Positions 4,778-25,732 of a stretch of DNA of 64,000 bases are shown piece by piece. How positions within the stretch are numbered: the stretch's first letter is position 1; every line of letters starts with the position of its first letter. Under the pieces are notes generated by a model. It made no database searches. It worked only from the letters and a program-made list of their open reading frames with translations, and had not been told where the DNA came from. A program made the translations under genes and the position numbers. Source of the stretch: a virus; IMG/VR virus record IMGVR_UViG_3300031857_012457, positions 62,001 through 126,000 of that record; one strand, written 5' to 3'.

Positions 4778-5870
4778 TGGCTTCGTCCGTTGTAAGTTCA
4801 ACTTCATCCGAATTGGAATTGTTTTTGTATAATAAAATTGTTGCTTCGCAAATTCTACGATAGATTTGGTCTTTTAGTTCTTCATCCTCTAATAATTTTG
4901 CAAAATCTTTAGATTGGAATTTGATTTCTTCACCACTTTCAATATCGACGTATGAATACCAAGCTCCACCTTGCTTTAATAATTTAGCATCTTTCATAAC
5001 TGCTAACCATCCTCCGTAGTTATCAATACCTCTATCAAAGAAAATATCAAAATCTGCGTGTCTTAATGGTGGTCCCATTCTGTTTTTGATAACCTGACAA
5101 CGAACCTTAATACCTACGATTCTATCCCCTGCTTTCAATTGCCCCATATTCTTCAAACGAACTCTAACAGATGCGTGAAATGCCAATGCCTTACCACCCG
5201 ATGTTGTCCACGGGTCACCGAACATTGCGTTCATCTTCTGTCTCAATTGATTTGTGAATATAAGTGCAATAGATTGTCTACCAATCATATTGGTAATCTT
5301 TCTCATTGCTTTGGAAATGATAATTGCCTTATCAGTTGCGTAACCATCCTTACCATAATCGGCTTCTAACTCCTTATGTGTAGATGCTGCTGCTACTGAA
5401 TCCACAACGATAGTTACTAATCTATCTTTATCACCTTTACGAACTTGCTCAATAATTGTTTCACATGCTTCGAAAATACCTTCAACGGTATCAACTGAAA
5501 CATATAGGAGTTTTGAAACATCTACTCCAATTGCTTCTAAAAATTCTCTACTAACTGCGGTTTCCGTATCAATCAATACTGCTACTCCACCTTTCTTTTG
5601 GGTTTCGGCAAGAAGATGGGCAGAGAGCAGAGATTTTCCACTCTGCTCTAAACCCGTAATCTCCGTAATACGTCCAACTGGCAATCCACCATAAGGTCGG
5701 TTTGAGATTGCTACATCTAACATTGCGTTTCCGGTAGATACCCAATCCTTTACATTGGTAGGGGCATCTCCACCCTCATCAGTTAGAAAGTAAGCAATCT
5801 TACCATCCTTATTTTGTTTGTTTAGAGAATCGGCAAGTAAACTTGCTAAATCTTCTTCTCTTTTTGCCAT
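4764..5870 (-). CDS. uvsX: UvsX/RecA-family recombinase
   Basis: Strand-exchange ATPase for recombination-dependent replication and repair, 368 residues. Walker A is GLEQSGKS at 73-80, Walker B lies in LVTIVVDSVAA, and the DNA-binding loop 2 region is followed by TSGGKALAFHASVRVRL. The acidic C-terminal tail resembles those of RecA and UvsX. It follows gp32 by 11 bases and overlaps the 5' exonuclease, so these genes form one transcription unit under the promoter at 6839. A RecA-like C-terminal domain is not evident, which favours UvsX over bacterial RecA. Confidence 0.92.
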   Translation of the reverse strand: MAKREEDLASLLADSLNKQNKDGKIAYFLTDEGGDAPTNVKDWVSTGNAMLDVAISNRPYGGLPVGRITEITGLEQSGKSLLSAHLLAETQKKGGVAVLIDTETAVSREFLEAIGVDVSKLLYVSVDTVEGIFEACETIIEQVRKGDKDRLVTIVVDSVAAASTHKELEADYGKDGYATDKAIIISKAMRKITNMIGRQSIALIFTNQLRQKMNAMFGDPWTTSGGKALAFHASVRVRLKNMGQLKAGDRIVGIKVRCQVIKNRMGPPLRHADFDIFFDRGIDNYGGWLAVMKDAKLLKQGGAWYSYVDIESGEEIKFQSKDFAKLLEDEELKDQIYRRICEATILLYKNNSNSDEVELTTDEANESD

Positions 5871-16538: not shown

Positions 16539-19346
16539 TTATATGAAATCACCAATGGTCTTTCTACCGTTTCCACCTAATGCATAAGACCTTCTGGCTT
16601 CTTCACGAAGTCTTTCTGAAATTACTTTACCATCCAGATTAAGTGTGCCTTCAAATAGACCTTGTGTATTTATAGCAATTTCTGTCAATATTGTAGTAGC
16701 CAATCCGAGTAATGAAACGGTTTCTATTTGTAAAGCGGAATTAAATTCGGCTTCAGTTAATTGACTAGCTCCTGTTTCTTGTAGTTTTTTATCTAACTCT
16801 TCTTGAGTTAACGCTTGAGTAAATAACTGACTACCATTGGTTATTGTGGCATTTTTAGCTTCGTCCATTTTTAGCTTTACTTCCTCCTGGTTTGCTACGT
16901 CAGATAGGCCGTTTGTTGCAACATTATTAGCTAATTCTAATGTTTTCTCTGTATTTTCTTCAGTAGCTGCAACTGTAGATTTATAACCTACTAAATTTGC
17001 CTGTCTTAATTCTTCTAATTTTTTCTGGTCAACAAAATACTCTGTATTGGCTTGGCCTTTAAATCGTCCTTGTTGTATTATCACCTGTTGTGACCCAACT
17101 AAACTCTTTATCATCTCAAATTCTTTATCCGATACTCCCTGCTGCTTTTTCCAATAGGCTCCCCCATCACGTAAAATGGGACCTCCTTCATTAATAAAAG
17201 ATTGCGCAAGATTTTGAATTCGTCTAATTTCTCTATCTGTGTCCTTATTCTTGTCTGCTATTTGAGTTCCAAATGTAGATTGAGTTACTTGTCCCAATGT
17301 TGCTTCTACCGCTGCTTTATCTTTCATATCCACATTATTTTTCTCTAATGCATCATTGAAAGATAAAACTAATTTACCAACATCTTCACTTTTTATACGT
17401 TCCTCCTTCAATAACTGCATTACTAGATTACTAGTTTCTGCACCTTGTCCTATACTCGCATCTAACCCATAAGCCGCCATTGCGGTGGCCATATCTGATT
17501 TACTTTTCGCACCCATCAAAAGAGCACCACTTGCAACGTCAGCTAACTCCTGTGCTGCTAGGTCTTCCTTTTCCATATCGGCAGCAAACTTTAATTCCCA
17601 GTATGCTCTATATCTTGCTTCTTCTTTTATTAAATCCATTTTTTGAGCCTGTTCTAACAACATCATTGCCGCTCTCTGTCTCTGCTCAAACTCTAATAAC
17701 TTTTTTCTCTGTTCTTGCTCTAATGCCAATTTTGCACCAGCATTTGCCAAATCTTGATTAAGAGCCGCATCTGCAAATGCTTTTCCTTTGGCAGCTTCCG
17801 CTTTTAATTCACCAGCAACTTTTGGGTCTTCTTTACCTTCCATTAATGCCATTAACGCAGATATATCCATTCCGGTAGCCTGTGATAATTGTTGTTTAGC
17901 AAATGGATTCATTGCACCGATATCCATGCCACCCAACGCGGATTTAAGAGCAGCTGCACCTCCTGCTTGGTCACCTGCCATTAATTTAGCTCTTACTTCG
18001 GAAAGATTTACATTTTTACCCAACATTGCGGATAAACTCATTTCCGCTTTAATACTATCTTTATAGTTTAATACCATAGTATCCGATGCCTTCATCATTG
18101 ATGACATTGATACACTCATTTTACTTAATAAAACCGCTTGTTTTGCAAAACTATCAGCAGTACCATTACTGAATTTATATATATCTTCACCCGCTTCTTT
18201 AATTTGATTGAAGATTACTTGAGGTGCTATATCATTTATTTTAGCAAATGACTCAAATCCTCCTATTAAATTTTGAGCCGTTTCAGCTGAAGTTTTACCC
18301 ATCAAACTGAATAATTTTGTCATATTCATGACATCCTCATCACTTCCACTTAAATGATATGCCAATCCTTGCGCGTTTTCAGATAGTTGAAAACTTTGTT
18401 TAATTCCCAATCCAAATGTAGCAGTGAATTTACCTACACCTTCGAGTATTTGTTTTGTACCAGAACCGATTGCTTTTAAGGCTCTTTCTGAAATTGTTGC
18501 ATATTTTTCTATAAATGAGATACCAGAAGCTGATATTGCTTTTCGTTTTTCTAATTCAGCATCTAATGTTTCTTTTGCTTGGTCTAATTGGAATTGTAAC
18601 GCATCTTTTCTTAAACCCATTTCATACTCAACTTCATCCTTGACTAAACTATGTTCGAATGCCATCTTATCCATCGCAATCCCTTTTGAATGGTCAAAAA
18701 TTTCTCTCTGAAGTTGTTGTTGTAATTCTAATGGTTTTTGATAAGCATATTTTGCATCTATTTTTCTAAATGCTTCCGTACCTTCTAAACTACCTTTCAT
18801 GTCTGCTATCCCACCAGGCCCTAACATACTACCTTTATTTGTAGCCATTTTTACTCCTGCTACCAATTTAGCTAATCCACCACTATTCCAAAAATCAAAG
18901 GCCATTTTTAAACCACTCAATACCATTCCTGCTGGTCCAGCTGCTCTTAATATCGCACCTCCAGCGGAACCTAGTCCTGCTGCAGCTTTACCCAACATAC
19001 CACCTGTTCCACCACCACCCTTTATACCAGCTAATCCTTTTTTGAATCCATTAAAATTTTCCTTACCCATTAATTTTCCGGCTACGCGCATGGTTTTTTT
19101 ACCGAACATGTTTTCAAATTGGTCGACAGCATTGGCCACTTTTTTCTGGTCCCCTCTTTCTGCTTTCTTTTCTGATTCTACCTTTTTCTTTGCTTTTCGG
19201 TCTAGCTCTTGTGTTTTTGCAAATCCGGCAAAAGAATCTGCTAATCTTTCTGCTACTTTTGAAAAATTGTCAACAGTTGCTTGAAAAGTACCTATACTTC
19301 TTTCTTGAGCTAAATCTAATTCTTCTTGTTTGCGACTCTTTGCCAT
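16539..19346 (-). CDS. gp29: Tail tape measure protein (gp29-like)
   Basis: 935 residues. It has the features of a tape measure: a charged helical N-terminus, a Gly/Ala-rich hydrophobic stretch at about 110-150 (GGAILRAAGPAGMVLSGLK), long helical segments such as KDALQFQLDQAKETLDAELE, a second hydrophobic region near 290-310, and many Met/Ala-rich helices. It would set tail length and be ejected during infection. The two genes just upstream are tail assembly proteins, as expected. It is longer than T4 gp29 (590 residues), which would fit a longer tail. Confidence 0.75.
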   Translation of the reverse strand: MAKSRKQEELDLAQERSIGTFQATVDNFSKVAERLADSFAGFAKTQELDRKAKKKVESEKKAERGDQKKVANAVDQFENMFGKKTMRVAGKLMGKENFNGFKKGLAGIKGGGGTGGMLGKAAAGLGSAGGAILRAAGPAGMVLSGLKMAFDFWNSGGLAKLVAGVKMATNKGSMLGPGGIADMKGSLEGTEAFRKIDAKYAYQKPLELQQQLQREIFDHSKGIAMDKMAFEHSLVKDEVEYEMGLRKDALQFQLDQAKETLDAELEKRKAISASGISFIEKYATISERALKAIGSGTKQILEGVGKFTATFGLGIKQSFQLSENAQGLAYHLSGSDEDVMNMTKLFSLMGKTSAETAQNLIGGFESFAKINDIAPQVIFNQIKEAGEDIYKFSNGTADSFAKQAVLLSKMSVSMSSMMKASDTMVLNYKDSIKAEMSLSAMLGKNVNLSEVRAKLMAGDQAGGAAALKSALGGMDIGAMNPFAKQQLSQATGMDISALMALMEGKEDPKVAGELKAEAAKGKAFADAALNQDLANAGAKLALEQEQRKKLLEFEQRQRAAMMLLEQAQKMDLIKEEARYRAYWELKFAADMEKEDLAAQELADVASGALLMGAKSKSDMATAMAAYGLDASIGQGAETSNLVMQLLKEERIKSEDVGKLVLSFNDALEKNNVDMKDKAAVEATLGQVTQSTFGTQIADKNKDTDREIRRIQNLAQSFINEGGPILRDGGAYWKKQQGVSDKEFEMIKSLVGSQQVIIQQGRFKGQANTEYFVDQKKLEELRQANLVGYKSTVAATEENTEKTLELANNVATNGLSDVANQEEVKLKMDEAKNATITNGSQLFTQALTQEELDKKLQETGASQLTEAEFNSALQIETVSLLGLATTILTEIAINTQGLFEGTLNLDGKVISERLREEARRSYALGGNGRKTIGDFI

Positions 19347-19383: not shown

Positions 19384-19617
19384 CTATTTTCTTCGTGCTC
19401 TACTAGGAGCAGATGCTGCTTTTTTAGTCGCGTTTTCATACAATTTAGCTTCGGTGTTCTTACTATTAAGTAATTCATTCCAATAAAATTCTCTTAATTT
19501 AGTGGGCATGAAATATACATCATGCCAAGTAAACCCGCCATTTGAGTTATAGATTAGTGAAAATATTTGTTTGTGTAAAGTTACAGAATGATTAGTCGGC
19601 AGGGTAAAAAAAGTCAA
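19384..19617 (-). CDS. Tail/baseplate assembly protein, possibly made by frameshifting
   Basis: 77 residues if read from the TTG at 19617. There is no ATG before the internal Met at about residue 37, and the frame is closed by a stop at 19621-19623. NSNGGFTWHDVYFMPTKLRE, then FYWNELLNSKN, matches a small conserved protein that follows the gp26-like gene in T4-like phages (gp51 or tail assembly chaperone position). The 26-base overlap with the upstream gene contains a seven-T run, so it may be reached by a +1 or -2 shift from the upstream frame. The basic C-terminal tail ends in SRARRK. Confidence 0.65.
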   Translation of the reverse strand: MTFFTLPTNHSVTLHKQIFSLIYNSNGGFTWHDVYFMPTKLREFYWNELLNSKNTEAKLYENATKKAASAPSRARRK

Positions 19618-20410
19618 GTCCTATTGGGACTTTAAGAGCCTCCTTCTCCCCTGTGAACGGTGATGTATATTCAAAACTTAAATTTATATCTGGAGTAATT
19701 TTTTGTATATATTTTCTTAAAGCTCTGGAGTCAGAAGCTCTCAATTGATTTACAACAAAATTACTGATAAAACCCAAATCTCTGTTACCATCTATTTCTA
19801 AAATAATTCTTCTTAATCGTGTAGTAACTTCTTTACCTTCTTTCAAAGTTTTTTCAGATGCTTCAATATCTTTATTTATAGCCATTTCATCACCATGCGT
19901 CAATAATTTAAATTTAATTATTGATTTAGATTGTGGTAATGTGAATTGATATTCATTTTCTCTGTTAAGTAAATTTTCATCAATTTCTTTAATTGATAAT
20001 TTACTCATATCAACTTTAGTTTGAACTGCTTCGTTTTCTACTGGGTCTGTAACGGTAACATCATACTCTGGTCCGTATGCCAACACTCTAGTTGCAATTA
20101 GAATTGCATTCTTATCTCCAATTATCAAATCAGAAAGACTTACTCCTGGTTCTACAATTATTGATTCTAATAATTTATCAATTACTATACCCTTACGGAT
20201 AAGATTTGTAGAAGTAAGAATATCTTCTTCTTTAGCAGTCATTAATTTAACAGTCACCTCACCTTTTGATAATGGAGATGATTCGGGATAACATAATCCC
20301 TTTGATGGTAAACTAATAATTTCCGTTGGGAATGGATACGATTTTTGTTGTTGATAAACAGGATTAGAATTTAATCCTCTACTAACTGCTTGTTCGGTAA
20401 TTTCTTCCAT
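19592..20410 (-). CDS. Baseplate hub assembly protein of the T4 baseplate family (gp26-like)
   Basis: 272 residues from the Met at 20410; the upstream in-frame Met at 20479 lies inside a terminator hairpin and is rejected. Diagnostic segments are TEIISLPSKGLCYPE, VKLMTAKEEDILTSTNLIRK, GDKNAILIATRVLAYG and FKLLTHGDEMAINKD, which I know from the T4 baseplate protein family (gp26). Relatives often carry a CPxC zinc motif after the YG-x-x-Y stretch; here it reads VTDPVENEA without cysteines. It precedes the 77-residue ORF and the tape measure gene. Confidence 0.7.
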   Translation of the reverse strand: MEEITEQAVSRGLNSNPVYQQQKSYPFPTEIISLPSKGLCYPESSPLSKGEVTVKLMTAKEEDILTSTNLIRKGIVIDKLLESIIVEPGVSLSDLIIGDKNAILIATRVLAYGPEYDVTVTDPVENEAVQTKVDMSKLSIKEIDENLLNRENEYQFTLPQSKSIIKFKLLTHGDEMAINKDIEASEKTLKEGKEVTTRLRRIILEIDGNRDLGFISNFVVNQLRASDSRALRKYIQKITPDINLSFEYTSPFTGEKEALKVPIGLDFFYPAD

Positions 20411-20507: not shown

Positions 20508-20702
20508 CTACCAACCAGGATAACCCCTTTGAGCTAATTCCTGTGTAACCTCATGATACTTCTCCTCACTCACTACACCATTCCAAAAACACCAATCATA
20601 ATTGGTCTTATGGGGGTCATTATGTCCATTGAACTCCGCAGTAGAAATCAACAAATCACAATACTCACTTACACTCATGCCAGCAATTTCTTCAGTTTCC
20701 AT
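20508..20702 (-). CDS. Unknown small protein of the inserted cassette
   Basis: 64 residues, acidic, not recognised. It contains SVSEYCDLLISTAEF and TNYDWCFWNGVVSEEKYHEV, compact and aromatic-rich, no membrane segment. It is the second gene of a two-gene unit with its own host-type promoter (21030) and terminator (20445). Confidence 0.7.
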   Translation of the reverse strand: METEEIAGMSVSEYCDLLISTAEFNGHNDPHKTNYDWCFWNGVVSEEKYHEVTQELAQRGYPGW

Positions 20703-20720: not shown

Positions 20721-20984
20721 TTAGTATTCAATTAAGGAAATTGGAACGATAAACACACCACCACTCTTTACACTTAAAGTAGCCTTTGTTCGATTAATTT
20801 TATTAACCCACAAATCTTTACCTCGCAATTTCGGGTGATTAACCGTAACTTGCATACCCACACTTAAACCCACTTTCTTTTGAAGTGATTCGATATTGCG
20901 TTTTTGTTTGATTAACTCAACAACAATCTGATTGATGTTACGCAATTCTGATACTGACAATTTTGATAATTCTGAAATGTTCAT
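20721..20984 (-). CDS. Unknown small protein with a KOW/SH3-like C-terminal half
   Basis: 87 residues. The first 38 form a helical region (ELSKLSVSELRNINQIVVEL). The rest, VGMQVTVNHPKLRGKDLWV then KINRTKATLSVKSGG, reads like a small beta-barrel of the KOW or SH3 type: a strand, a K-x-x-G turn and two further strands. Such barrels often bind nucleic acid or ribosomal/transcription proteins. It is the first gene of a unit driven by a host-type promoter, so early expression is likely, unlike the tail genes around it. Confidence 0.7.
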   Translation of the reverse strand: MNISELSKLSVSELRNINQIVVELIKQKRNIESLQKKVGLSVGMQVTVNHPKLRGKDLWVNKINRTKATLSVKSGGVFIVPISLIEY

Positions 20985-21166: not shown

Positions 21167-21655
21167 TTAGTATTCAAGAATTGCGTAATCATAAGTTAAA
21201 GTTAATTCTATCGATAGTGGGTCGTTTGAAGCCCAATCCAATTCACCAAAGTTTGCTGAAGTGATAAATGCTCCTTTTAAAGTCCATTGTTCAATCTTAT
21301 CACCTACTGGTCCTAATAAGAAGAAGTTAATATCTTTCTTATAGAATGCCGCGTATCCATCTCTACCTGTTAGAGATTCGTGTGAACTTCTAACCCACTC
21401 CATTACTTGCTGTGCTCCAGATGGAACGATTGGGTCATAAAGAGAGATAGTAATATCATCCCAAGTGGATTTACCCTTAATCTTTCTTTTTACGTTGATG
21501 TGGTCTAGTTCAACTATTTCCGATGTGAAAGTTGGTCTACTAGCCGTTTTGATGATGTATGATTCAATACCATTGATTTCCATAATAAATCTATTCCCCA
21601 ATTTGGGTTCAAAATTTCTGTAGAACATCTTGTCAAACTCTAATATTTCTGGCAT
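21167..21655 (-). CDS. gp19: Tail tube protein (gp19)
   Basis: 162 residues, the T4 gp19 size (163). Reads NRFIMEINGIESYIIKTASR, then EIVELDHINVKRKIKGKSTW and DDITISLYDPIVPSGAQQV, ending FGELDWASNDPLSIELTLTY: the strand pattern of the myovirus tube/Hcp fold. It polymerises inside the sheath encoded just upstream and is followed by a strong terminator. Confidence 0.9.
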   Translation of the reverse strand: MPEILEFDKMFYRNFEPKLGNRFIMEINGIESYIIKTASRPTFTSEIVELDHINVKRKIKGKSTWDDITISLYDPIVPSGAQQVMEWVRSSHESLTGRDGYAAFYKKDINFFLLGPVGDKIEQWTLKGAFITSANFGELDWASNDPLSIELTLTYDYAILEY

Positions 21656-21701: not shown

Positions 21702-23936
21702 TTATCCGTTAAAACTTGCTCCAGTTGGTAAGATGTTGAAATCAATTTGAATGAATTCAGCGGTTTTAGTCGGTTGTAAGAAGATAGCTCCTGCTAATAT
21801 GTTTCTATCAATTACATCAGGCGTATTGTTAGTATCATCCATCACTACTCTAAACGCGTAAAGTCCTTGTCTCTGTTGGATGCTATCCAAATATGGATTA
21901 ACAATGTTTAAGAATCTGTTTCTAGTTTCAGAAGTATTTTGTTCAAACACTAAATATCTAGATGAAGATGCGATATACTTTCTAACAGTCAACAACAATC
22001 TTCTTACGTTGATTCTATCCAATGCAGATGGTCTATCTTGCAATGTTTTTTGTCCGAATACTACAATTCCTTGTCCAGGGAACTGAACGATTGGGTTTAC
22101 TTTGTTTTCGTATAATGAATCTTTTTCGGATTGAGTTAAACGATTTTGAACACTTACTGCTCCAATTAAACCACCTCTATTCAAACCTGCTGGTGCAAAC
22201 CATTCAGCTGCTACTCTATCGTTAGCCGCAAATACCCCAGGCAATAATACTGATGGTGGTACTGCGATTAGTTTGTTAGTGTTAACATCGATTGTTTTAA
22301 CCCAAGGGTAGTAAGTTGCTACCATATTTGAATCGATTGATTGTGCTTCTGTATTTGCTTGTCCAATTGAATCACCATAAGCGGTTGTATCCAAAATGTA
22401 GAAACAATCATTTCGTTGCTCAACCATATCCAATACTGAAGTTGCTACTGAAGAGTGTAATCGTTTGATAACACCTGGAGTTACAACCATATTGATGTCA
22501 AATTCATCTACATTTGATAATGCCGCGATATGTTTAGCGTATGCTGCTGAACCACTAGCATTTACTGTTGATAAGTTAAATCCTTGTGAGTTTCCTGCTG
22601 AAATATCTGCTCCTGTCAATATTGGAGTTGCTGGATTCATACCATCAAATCCTTCTTGGAATCCTACAATGAATTGTGCCGAAGTTGAACCTACTGCTAA
22701 TGTACCACCATTTGATGCATCTAATCCAAATACAGAGTTAGAACCTACACCTGCTCCAGTCGGAATTGGCTTTAAGTAGATATTGTTATCAGTATTACCA
22801 TCTAAATTGATACCACCATATTGTGTTGCCGATGAAGTTAAGAATGTTACTGCAGGAATCAATGCTCCAACTGCTGCCGATGCGGATACTGGTAAAGTAT
22901 ACGCTGCGTGTCCGAATGGAACTGCTTGTACGGGAGCCGATGTATTTAAGTTAGCAATTCTAACATATTTTGAATTACTTACCCAATCTCCAGATTCAGA
23001 TATTTTACCCTCTGAATCAATTGATAATTTTCTATCACCGATTACTCTACTAATATAGTTAGGAGAATTAGGGTCTAAATTTACATTTGAATAAGTTTCT
23101 AATACTACTTTTTTCTTATTTGTATCACCAAATTCTCTTACAACTACGGTGAATGTACCATAATCAGTACCATTTACAGAACCTGCTGCTTTAATATTTG
23201 TGATACCAATTTTTACTTTAGTATTTGCCGCATTACCTGCTCCGATTGTTTCAAATTGGAATAAGTTATATCTATCACCAGAGATTACTTGAGATGTAAT
23301 CATTGGTGTTAACGCCTCTTGCGCATCAAATGTAAAAAGTTGGTCACCCAATACAGTTACTGAAGAAGATGCACTGGAATTAAATGTTATAGAAGAATTT
23401 TTAAAGAATCCATACACATAAGGGTCTTTAGAACCAAACGCAGATGTTCCAAATACTGCTTCAATATCGTTTGTATCGGTTACATCCAAAGAAGCAGATA
23501 GGTTTAATCCACTACCTCTTAATACGAAATCACCTGCTCCTGCATTAGAAGAAGTTAATTGTGCGTCTGCAAAACCTCCGTTTGCACTTCCTGAAGTATT
23601 GAATAAGATACCTAAAGATGCTGATACAGCTCCTGAAGTTGCAGTTAATAATAAAGGTGCTACTTCGGTATATCCTCCAACACCCCCAACTCTACAAATT
23701 GTAGCAGTTCCTGCCTCTCTTAAATAATTTTGTACGGCTAAAGGAGTAAGATATGTGCCATCTGCTGCTCCAAATAATTTTTCAAATTCTGCCTGTGAAT
23801 TTACGATTGTAGGTACCAATGGTCCTTCTTTGAAAGGTCCGATAAATGCTGCTCCAATATCTGCTACCCCTTGCTGTAAGAATGAAAGGTCATTTTCTTT
23901 TGTAAATACACCTGGTGATACTATTTTGTCTGCCAT
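21702..23936 (-). CDS. gp18: Contractile tail sheath protein (gp18)
   Basis: 744 residues. It starts KIVSPGVFTKENDLSFLQQG and continues IGAAFIGPFKEGPLVPTIV, the usual sheath N-terminus, and the C-terminal domain has VFGQKTLQDRPSALDRINVR, then RRLLLTVRKYIASSSRYLVF and a final FIQIDFNILPTGAS, which are sheath family hallmarks. The variable middle (about residues 100-470) is a beta-rich, Ser/Gly/Ala-rich surface insertion. It is longer than T4 gp18 (659). Unlike T4, where sheath and tube lie between terminase and portal, here they follow the fibre genes. Confidence 0.93.
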   Translation of the reverse strand: MADKIVSPGVFTKENDLSFLQQGVADIGAAFIGPFKEGPLVPTIVNSQAEFEKLFGAADGTYLTPLAVQNYLREAGTATICRVGGVGGYTEVAPLLLTATSGAVSASLGILFNTSGSANGGFADAQLTSSNAGAGDFVLRGSGLNLSASLDVTDTNDIEAVFGTSAFGSKDPYVYGFFKNSSITFNSSASSSVTVLGDQLFTFDAQEALTPMITSQVISGDRYNLFQFETIGAGNAANTKVKIGITNIKAAGSVNGTDYGTFTVVVREFGDTNKKKVVLETYSNVNLDPNSPNYISRVIGDRKLSIDSEGKISESGDWVSNSKYVRIANLNTSAPVQAVPFGHAAYTLPVSASAAVGALIPAVTFLTSSATQYGGINLDGNTDNNIYLKPIPTGAGVGSNSVFGLDASNGGTLAVGSTSAQFIVGFQEGFDGMNPATPILTGADISAGNSQGFNLSTVNASGSAAYAKHIAALSNVDEFDINMVVTPGVIKRLHSSVATSVLDMVEQRNDCFYILDTTAYGDSIGQANTEAQSIDSNMVATYYPWVKTIDVNTNKLIAVPPSVLLPGVFAANDRVAAEWFAPAGLNRGGLIGAVSVQNRLTQSEKDSLYENKVNPIVQFPGQGIVVFGQKTLQDRPSALDRINVRRLLLTVRKYIASSSRYLVFEQNTSETRNRFLNIVNPYLDSIQQRQGLYAFRVVMDDTNNTPDVIDRNILAGAIFLQPTKTAEFIQIDFNILPTGASFNG

Positions 23937-24004: not shown

Positions 24005-25732
24005 TTACTTTAATGTTGTTGAGAAATGATTATATACCTGCGCTACTGATGTAGAATTCTGTAATACATTGTAGAATAATACGGCTTGGATACCTCCATT
24101 CCAAAATGTTGTTCTTGCACTATTACATCCAATTGTTACAAAGTTAGTAGAAGATGGAGCAGTAAATGCTGATGAAGTGAATGTTCCTACTGAACTACCA
24201 TCAACGTATATGGTACAAGTACCTGATGGTTGGAATGCTGCTGAAATTAAATAGTTTACCCCACTCGTTAATGATGTGGTTAATTGTGCACTATTTCCTA
24301 ATGAACTACCATAAAACTTAACTCTATTTAATGTAGAATTATCAGTAGATTCGATTGCTAACCCATAAAATCCAGCATAATCAAAAATATGTCGCGATGC
24401 TACACCCAATGTTGTAGTTGGTCTAATCCAAACGTGGATTGTACCAGTATTTGTATTAAATTGTGAATATCCACCATTAATGTTAGTTGTCGTATCTTTG
24501 TAGAAGAATTGGTTAGTTCCGTTAAATGTTACAAATGATGCTTTCTTATTTGCACCATTTGTAGATGTTGGATTACCACCCGTAATTCCCGCATCGTTTA
24601 TAACACCTGCAGGTCTAACACCTGTATTATATCCACTCAAATCTAACCAGTCTGCTGCTGCAGAACCTGAATTATAAGATGCCGTTTTATATTGGTCAAC
24701 ATATAATCTTAATCCTGAAGATGGAATATATGGTTGTGTAGTTGTTCCTTTGTTATGAGATATGATACCGTTTGCCAAATAAACGTCAGCATTTTCCACA
24801 TTAAGTGTTACGATTTCAACATCTTCAATTATTACTTCAATATCAGTAATTTCTACCTCATTTAAACCAGTTACCGAATCGTATGTTACTACTAAATCAC
24901 CAATTAATACATCTTCGATATTCTTAAAACGATATTTTTCGATTTCAGAATCCCAAACCCAAAGAGGGTGAGTTCCAGTTGCTTTTATCAATCCACCATT
25001 TAAATCGTAATATCCACTTGCAAAGTTAAATACAATATCTGCTACATTTACTTCTTGATATGAACCAGATTGATTTTCTAACATATAGAATCTCCAATCA
25101 ACTTGGTCTGATTCTGGATCCTGGTCTTCATCAGGTAAACCATCAGGTACCCATGCTTTAATAGTATCACCTACTGAAAGGTCTTCTACATTTACAAGAG
25201 TTCCATCTGCTTTAGTTATTTTTGTTCCAAATAGTAAACAGAAATCTGGTTGGTTAATTGTATTATAAACATCTACTGCAAATAGGGTTTTGGTAGATGG
25301 TGTGTTATATCCAGTTGCTGCCAAATTATAACCATCGGCATAATTTAAAGTCAATACTGAAGATGCTTCCGAATATGTTGATTGTGCAATAGATGCAGGT
25401 GTAATTGGAAATGACGGAGATGCACCTAATGTTGGAGAACCTACTGAAAAGTTTGCGTTATTAAAAGATGCAGTATAATTTGCAGCTACACTACCTACTT
25501 TCGAACCATGTAATGAACCCGCTGTCCCAAATGAGAATGTTGCGGTTTCTGTTGTAGATTCTACTATATAAGTAAAAGTTGGCAAATTTGGCGTTACGGA
25601 GTCTATTGCGAATGAAGTTAGTGAACTATTCGAAGCTCCACCTGATAACCCTCCCAATGAAACTGCTCCGGCTCTGTTTGAACCACTAACCGCTCTAAAT
25701 AAATTTCCTAATGATAAATTAGTTCTTGGCAT
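24005..25732 (-). CDS. Virion/fibre protein with an internal Hint (intein-like) domain and a LamG-like lectin domain
   Basis: 575 residues in three parts. Residues 1-164 are a Ser/Gly-rich beta region. Residues 165-327 are a Hint domain: Cys165 begins CLLFGTKITKADGTLVNVED, block B is GGLIKATGTHPLW with His255, and the end is DVYLANGIISHNKG with His326-Asn327. Residues 330-575 resemble a concanavalin/LamG-like domain (TGTIHVWIRPTT, CTIYVDGSSVGTF). The residue after the terminal Asn is Lys, not Cys/Ser/Thr, as in bacterial intein-like domains, so cleavage or unusual splicing would separate or join the flanks. It lies between the glycosyltransferase and sheath genes. Confidence 0.82.
   Translation of the reverse strand: MPRTNLSLGNLFRAVSGSNRAGAVSLGGLSGGASNSSLTSFAIDSVTPNLPTFTYIVESTTETATFSFGTAGSLHGSKVGSVAANYTASFNNANFSVGSPTLGASPSFPITPASIAQSTYSEASSVLTLNYADGYNLAATGYNTPSTKTLFAVDVYNTINQPDFCLLFGTKITKADGTLVNVEDLSVGDTIKAWVPDGLPDEDQDPESDQVDWRFYMLENQSGSYQEVNVADIVFNFASGYYDLNGGLIKATGTHPLWVWDSEIEKYRFKNIEDVLIGDLVVTYDSVTGLNEVEITDIEVIIEDVEIVTLNVENADVYLANGIISHNKGTTTQPYIPSSGLRLYVDQYKTASYNSGSAAADWLDLSGYNTGVRPAGVINDAGITGGNPTSTNGANKKASFVTFNGTNQFFYKDTTTNINGGYSQFNTNTGTIHVWIRPTTTLGVASRHIFDYAGFYGLAIESTDNSTLNRVKFYGSSLGNSAQLTTSLTSGVNYLISAAFQPSGTCTIYVDGSSVGTFTSSAFTAPSSTNFVTIGCNSARTTFWNGGIQAVLFYNVLQNSTSVAQVYNHFSTTLK
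24752..25240 (-). other. Hint domain coding segment (Cys165 to Asn327)
   Basis: Marks the bases coding the self-processing domain inside the host gene. The Hint blocks A, B, F and G are all present, and there is no homing endonuclease insert: the domain is only 163 residues. Confidence 0.8.

Follow-up and report, generated by a model that had tools for sequence, protein, structure and literature searches.

How is the small open reading frame (ORF) that overlaps the 3' end of a gp26-like gene, just ahead of a putative tape-measure gene, expressed when it has no usable start of its own? The question is raised by a stretch of viral DNA of 64,000 nucleotides (the window), part of the 201,940-base IMG/VR record IMGVR_UViG_3300031857_012457, which may be incomplete. 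Our results suggested that the gp26-like gene and the next ORF are a single recoded tail-assembly-chaperone gene, in which a +1 frameshift would give a short and a long form. From the sequences compared here, we put the probability of this reading at about 0.85. The locus contains the following features:

16539..19346, minus strand: putative tape-measure gene, 935 aa, assigned by position and length; begins 38 nt after the extension
19384..19611, minus strand: +1-frame extension, 75 aa after the shift, supported by pN/pS, three predicted helices and membership of one family in the +1 clade
19592..20410, minus strand: gp26-like gene, short form, 272 aa; ATG at 20410, a start common to the relatives
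19606..19612, minus strand: T7 slip run in TTT_TTT_TAC_CCT, the proposed +1 shift site, nearly invariant in 81 close loci
21167..21655, minus strand: tail tube gene, gp19 type (PF06841, E=4.9e-9)
21702..23936, minus strand: tail sheath gene (PF04984, E=1.2e-18)

The gene order and the overlap

The gp26-like gene matched the Pfam profile PF12322 (T4_baseplate) with 33.7 bits, against a curated cut-off of 24.5 (E=3.8e-8), and was assigned to PHROG 150, baseplate hub; NCBIfam has no model for the family. It was compared with its 80 nearest IMG/VR relatives from a viral-contig search, giving 81 sequences with the window; the 65 relatives below 90% amino acid identity were used as representatives. 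The tube gene lies upstream on the same strand in 80/80 loci and the sheath gene in 75, and tape-measure homologues lie downstream in 44. The putative tape-measure gene of the window had no Pfam or PHROG match; the gene at the equivalent position is annotated as tape measure in phages immuto and LIS04. Thus, the gp26-like gene sits between the tube and tape-measure genes, on their strand, as is typical of the G/GT class of chaperone genes.

Some neighbouring features were also observed. For two small minus-strand ORFs between the tube and gp26-like genes (20508-20702 and 20721-20984), homologues were found in just 5 and 2 loci out of 80, respectively; these ORFs look like recent or lineage-specific insertions. 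The gap from the extension to the next long ORF, 38 nt in the window, is about 300 nt in most of the relatives L003-L080 (median 301.5), which leaves room for a further small gene, and one is annotated at this place in Mel-JY01. A 575-aa ORF adjacent to the sheath gene (24005-25732, minus) contains LFGTKITKADGTLVNVEDLSVGD ... HPLW ... NVENADVYLANGIISHN; on visual reading of the translation alone, this stretch resembles a Hint/intein-type domain within a structural-looking protein.

The gp26-like ORF ends GGA CTT GAC TTT TTT TAC CCT GCC GAC TAA, with its stop at 19594-19592 (minus). The downstream ORF, which follows an in-frame TAG and stops at 19386-19384, lies in the +1 frame; its first candidate start is a TTG at 19617 and its earliest ATG lies at about residue 37 of the listed ORF. 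This bears out the original prediction, which had singled out the locus for an overlap lacking an ATG before the tape-measure gene. Note that the −1 frame closes within a few codons in the window, which does not fit a canonical X_XXY_YYZ −1 signal.

The slip site is conserved

An alignment across relatives had been proposed as a check, and it showed that both the site and the missing start are conserved. The gp26-like ORF ends in FF[YW]P, with the +1 ORF coming next, in 81/81 sequences. This end is encoded as TTTTTTTACCC in 44 of them, TTTTTTTGGCC in 34, TTTTTTTATCC in 2 and TTCTTTTACCC in 1, and the T7 run is present in 80/81, the exception being TTCTTTT. Both Phe residues are encoded by TTT almost throughout, in 64/65 and 65/65 representatives, compared to 80% TTT elsewhere in the same genes, and the next codon, where it encodes Tyr, is TAC in 34/36, compared to 21% elsewhere. 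Since the slip codons are synonymously constrained in this way, the T7 run is more than chance. In one relative of the +1 type (L037) a stop cuts the extension short about 70 nt after the slip site, which may be a sequencing error or decay.

The second frame is probably read from the slip site onward

Many loci have a +1 frame that is open from just 2 nt ahead of the run; therefore, the shift there would have to occur between the run and the zero-frame stop. Over the stretch from slip+12 to a near-universal Met at +100/103, pN/pS in the +1 frame was 0.30 and 0.44 in two groups, compared to about 1.0 and 1.7-1.9 in the other frames. In 31 of the 65 representatives no ATG, GTG or TTG occurs in the +1 frame at or before slip+16, yet in these, too, the +1 reading is under selection from the site on. 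The combination found here, a conserved slippery site, a 3' overlap with an ORF in a second frame and no independent start, is the one that characterizes G/GT-type recoding.

These results bear on whether the second ORF is simply translated from a start of its own, be it the TTG at 19617, an internal ATG or a non-standard codon reached by coupled reinitiation. The window does carry that TTG just before the run, several relatives have a TTG at −11 or −5, and Pseudomonas phage Cygsa01 has an overlapping TAATG start. However, the 31 startless representatives are under +1-frame selection in the very region that such initiation would have to explain, initiation at the near-universal Met would delete the first predicted helix of the extension, and the synonymous constraint on the slip codons would be left unexplained. 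We consider independent initiation very unlikely. An ordinary ATG start beyond the upstream stop in homologues had been named in advance as the observation that would speak against a frameshift; what we found instead is that the startless group keeps the selected reading.

Interrupted T runs favour a +1 shift

The original prediction had left the direction of the shift at the T run as either +1 or −2. Among 130 distinct sites of the +1 clade, 99 have T7 and 31 have TTT_CTT, TTT_CTA or TTC_TTT. In all 130, one or both of the two codons could re-pair forward to UUU or UUC. In the immuto-like loci the extension is in the +1 frame in 79/79 intact cases, many with TTT_CTT_TGG or TTT_CTA_TGG. The sites of Microcystis Mel-JY01 and Rhodothermus RM378 read TTT_TTT_TGG; those of LR756508 (TTT_CTA_TTC) and Streptococcus GXN1 (TTC_TTT_CGT) have no T run above three and keep the +1 relation. 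Bacillus SP-15 and Listeria LIS04 also keep the +1 ORF with other sites, where the exact slip codon is ambiguous. Because relatives with a broken T run (TTT_CTT_TGG, TTC_TTT_TAC) keep the +1 frame, +1 slippage is favoured, and both −2 and transcriptional slippage are disfavoured.

A −2 ribosomal frameshift on the seven T, as in phage Mu, would lead to the same frame with one extra Phe, and the T7 run does let a P-site UUU re-pair two bases back. However, this re-pairing is mismatched at the 31 interrupted sites out of 130, those of GXN1 and LR756508 likewise, and upstream hairpins are reported to oppose backward shifts (PMC3639245). A −2 shift thus has little chance of being the right explanation, and of the two directions first proposed only +1 is supported, together with the frameshift itself. 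Polymerase slippage into mRNAs with six or nine U, which would also fuse the frames, draws on the tendency of homopolymer runs to slip and on the T7 in most loci, and is scarcely credible, since the frame relation is kept with four T (L044), with TTTCTTT or TTTCTAT (immuto-like loci) and with no more than three T (LR756508, GXN1), and the −1 relatives use one phased heptamer, T_TTT_TTC.

Some points count against the preferred reading, a +1 ribosomal frameshift: the A-site codon (TAC, TAT or TGG in the +1 clade) is neither a stop nor obviously starved, and the +1 A-site codons ACC and GGC are rare. On the evidence as a whole, it is very probable that in a large group of T4-type phages the ribosome moves past one base at a fixed T run.

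A predicted hairpin precedes the slip site in the +1 clade

Two further elements were identified upstream of the run:

19616..19632, minus strand: predicted hairpin AAGTCC-CAATA-GGACTT, ending 3 nt before the slip run, supported by folding energy and a codon-permutation control
19639..19643, minus strand: Shine-Dalgarno-like GGAGG, 26 nt before the run, position conserved in 46/65 representatives

In the close relatives, no other stretch examined in the gene is as structured as the 30 nt before the run, where the mean minimum free energy (MFE) is −6.39 compared to about −0.9 to −3.9 further upstream. A codon-usage control gave −3.78 (sd 0.25), and permuting synonymous codons within columns gave −5.44 (sd 0.21), with 0/200 permutations as low as the observed value. 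The immuto-like group showed a weaker trend (−5.21, controls −4.15 and −4.86; 12/200), and the cyanophage −1 group showed no excess of upstream structure (MFE −3.04). The upstream hairpin thus appears to be synonymously constrained and specific to the +1 clade. It has a median of 6 predicted pairs and ends 0-6 nt before the run. Covariation in a fixed register was moderate among 49 distinct sequences, 30/500 shuffles reaching the observed percentage of paired positions and 4/500 the number of double changes, in part because the register of the hairpin slides.

The GGAGG occurs at exactly −26 nt in those 46 representatives, compared to 14 occurrences at all other upstream positions together, and the Glu codon in it is GAG in 48/49, GAG being 15% of Glu codons. 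Folding of the hairpin might bring this element within reach of the anti-Shine-Dalgarno. A downstream stimulatory structure was looked for in the window and not found. In one subgroup that has no GGAGG, a downstream hairpin is present (GCCGCC-9 nt-GGCGGC); all of its pairs are kept, and 3/6 show changes on both sides.

The +1 and −1 types lie on opposite sides of one family

T4 gp26 and gp51 both belong to PF12322, gp51 having an extra tail of about 48 aa. In the cyanophage-type loci the extension is in the −1 frame in 80/80, with TTTTTTC in 75/75 distinct sites. In a 59-row tree, a branch with support 100/99 separates the 40 +1 sequences from the −1 and T4-type sequences. The extension is one family across the +1 clade (profile E=1e-22 and 3.8e-9, the latter for the extensions of Firmicutes phages against that of the window). 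Since the extension of the window matched that of the cyanophages only weakly (E=0.011, probability 4%) and gave no significant profile match to the gp51 tail, we do not claim homology of the extensions across the −1/+1 divide. The cyanophage extension does match the gp51 tail (E=2.4e-5). A scan with the SP-15 protein returned SP-15 itself as the only match.

Several annotations at these loci deserve mention. In the cultured Flavobacterium phage immuto (L082, MW353176), only a 36-aa CDS is annotated at 5233-5458, where the +1 extension lies, so that most of it is unannotated. Small ORFs of S-RIM8 (L092, 4232-4369) and S-SCSM1 (L091, 4210-4374) carry the annotation 'baseplate hub assembly catalyst'; each is probably the gp26-like gene's extension. 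A −1 shift at TTTTTTC fits S-RIM8. The S-SCSM1 extension, unlike its −1 relatives, has an ATG of its own and lies in the +1 frame, and may reflect an indel or sequencing error. A −1 type locus (L117) has a stop in the extension 41 nt after the zero-frame stop, from sequencing error or decay.

A putative G/GT-type chaperone and how it may be made

The short form and the extension were modelled separately with AlphaFold. The short-form model (pLDDT 86.6) matched the SP-15 baseplate hub subunit in BFVD (TM 0.78/0.86), and its viral fold matches are T4-like baseplate hub proteins. The most probable PDB fold match was the HK97 chaperone 2OB9, which was not significant (probability 0.44, TMt 0.47, E=1.1), and the gp26-like profile gave no match when searched against the sequences of solved structures. 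The extension was modelled as three helices (8-22, 29-33 and 37-66; pLDDT 83.4). A G/GT-type tail-assembly chaperone is the best reading of the pair, given its place between the tube and tape-measure genes, its short/long architecture and the membership of PF12322 that it shares with gp26/gp51.

Site, frame, selection, hairpin and gene order are all visible in the sequences; that the shift occurs at all and how often, which tRNA slips, what the hairpin does and what the products do, we infer. Most ribosomes would terminate at the TAA and give the 272-aa short form. A minority would move +1 at UUU_UUU_UAC, the P-site tRNA-Phe re-pairing on the overlapping UUU, and make a fusion of about 341 aa, the long form, whose C-terminal domain would be helical. 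If the pair works like lambda gpG/gpGT, the tape measure would be coated by the short form, and tube subunits would be recruited by the long one. The hairpin, refolding just behind the ribosome, would probably bias the slip forward, as engineered hairpins do: in yeast, −1 frameshifting was attenuated and +1 frameshifting stimulated when a 6-bp hairpin stood a few nt ahead of the slippery site (Cho et al. 2013, PMC3639245). The phage hairpin resembles that element in size (about 6 bp) and in lying a few nt before the slip site; the published one is engineered and acts in eukaryotic systems, whereas this one is natural, conserved and predicted. We propose, tentatively and at slightly under even odds, that the hairpin behind the slip site sets the direction of recoding, the +1 clade having it and the −1 cyanophage clade lacking it, with T4 using two genes instead.

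Comparison with known systems

The conserved frameshift of tail-assembly chaperone genes was reportedly described by Xu, Hendrix and Duda in 2004. As occurs with lambda gpG/gpGT, a short gene between tube and tape measure would be recoded near its 3' end into the next small ORF; here the predicted shift is +1 rather than −1 and lies in an unrelated-looking PF12322 protein. As in T4 gp26/gp51, the protein belongs to PF12322, and gp51, with the family domain and its 48-aa tail, resembles the fused form. T4, however, makes short and long forms from two genes without recoding, whereas the 201,940-base record, possibly incomplete, has a single PF12322 gene and no T4-style pair of paralogues. The cyanophage (Kyanoviridae-type) gp26 and its small 'gp51' ORF share the family, the gene order and an extension in another frame at a T-rich site, and differ in shifting −1 at T_TTT_TTC, in having no upstream hairpin excess and in lying on the other side of the tree. 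As in prfB (CUU_UGA) and influenza PA-X (UCC_UUU_CGU), a P-site UUU or CUU would re-pair one base forward, and the GXN1 site (TTC_TTT_CGT) resembles that of PA-X. Unlike prfB, there is no A-site stop and no Shine-Dalgarno 3 nt upstream, the GGAGG lying 26 nt before the run with the hairpin directly upstream instead.

According to a 2016 review (PMC5009743), G/GT frameshifting is a conserved property of long-tailed phages other than T4, and tailed phages include cases of −1, −2 and +1 shifts. The original prediction knew of no T4-type case, a view now outdated: the T4-like chaperones were identified in 2022 (Vladimirov, Gautam and Davidson) as gp26/gp51, according to PMC10885494 and PMC12846349, which cite that work, and the cyanophage relatives have a −1 version. 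In addition, PMC10885494 describes some T4-like phages with a two-gene solution, and PMC12846349 describes −1 signals of the poly-T kind in the short-chaperone genes of T4-like phages. The +1 chaperone frameshift would then be a variant of the already known G/GT recoding, in a family whose chaperone role in T4 was, according to the same papers, reported in 2022. No description of the +1 clade or its upstream hairpin was found in the literature searched, in which the 2022 chaperone study is represented by papers that cite it.

Implications

The annotation of this family is corrected in two respects. In these genomes, the gp26 homologues labelled 'baseplate hub' are probably chaperones; the small ORF that follows them, labelled 'hypothetical' or 'hub assembly catalyst', is probably their extension and not a separate gene. 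The clade is also a source of many natural variants of a bacterial +1 site in which an upstream hairpin is conserved; this kind of stimulator has otherwise been examined with engineered reporters in yeast. Finally, the +1, −1 and two-gene solutions now lie on one PF12322 tree, and how T4 came to dispense with recoding becomes a testable question.
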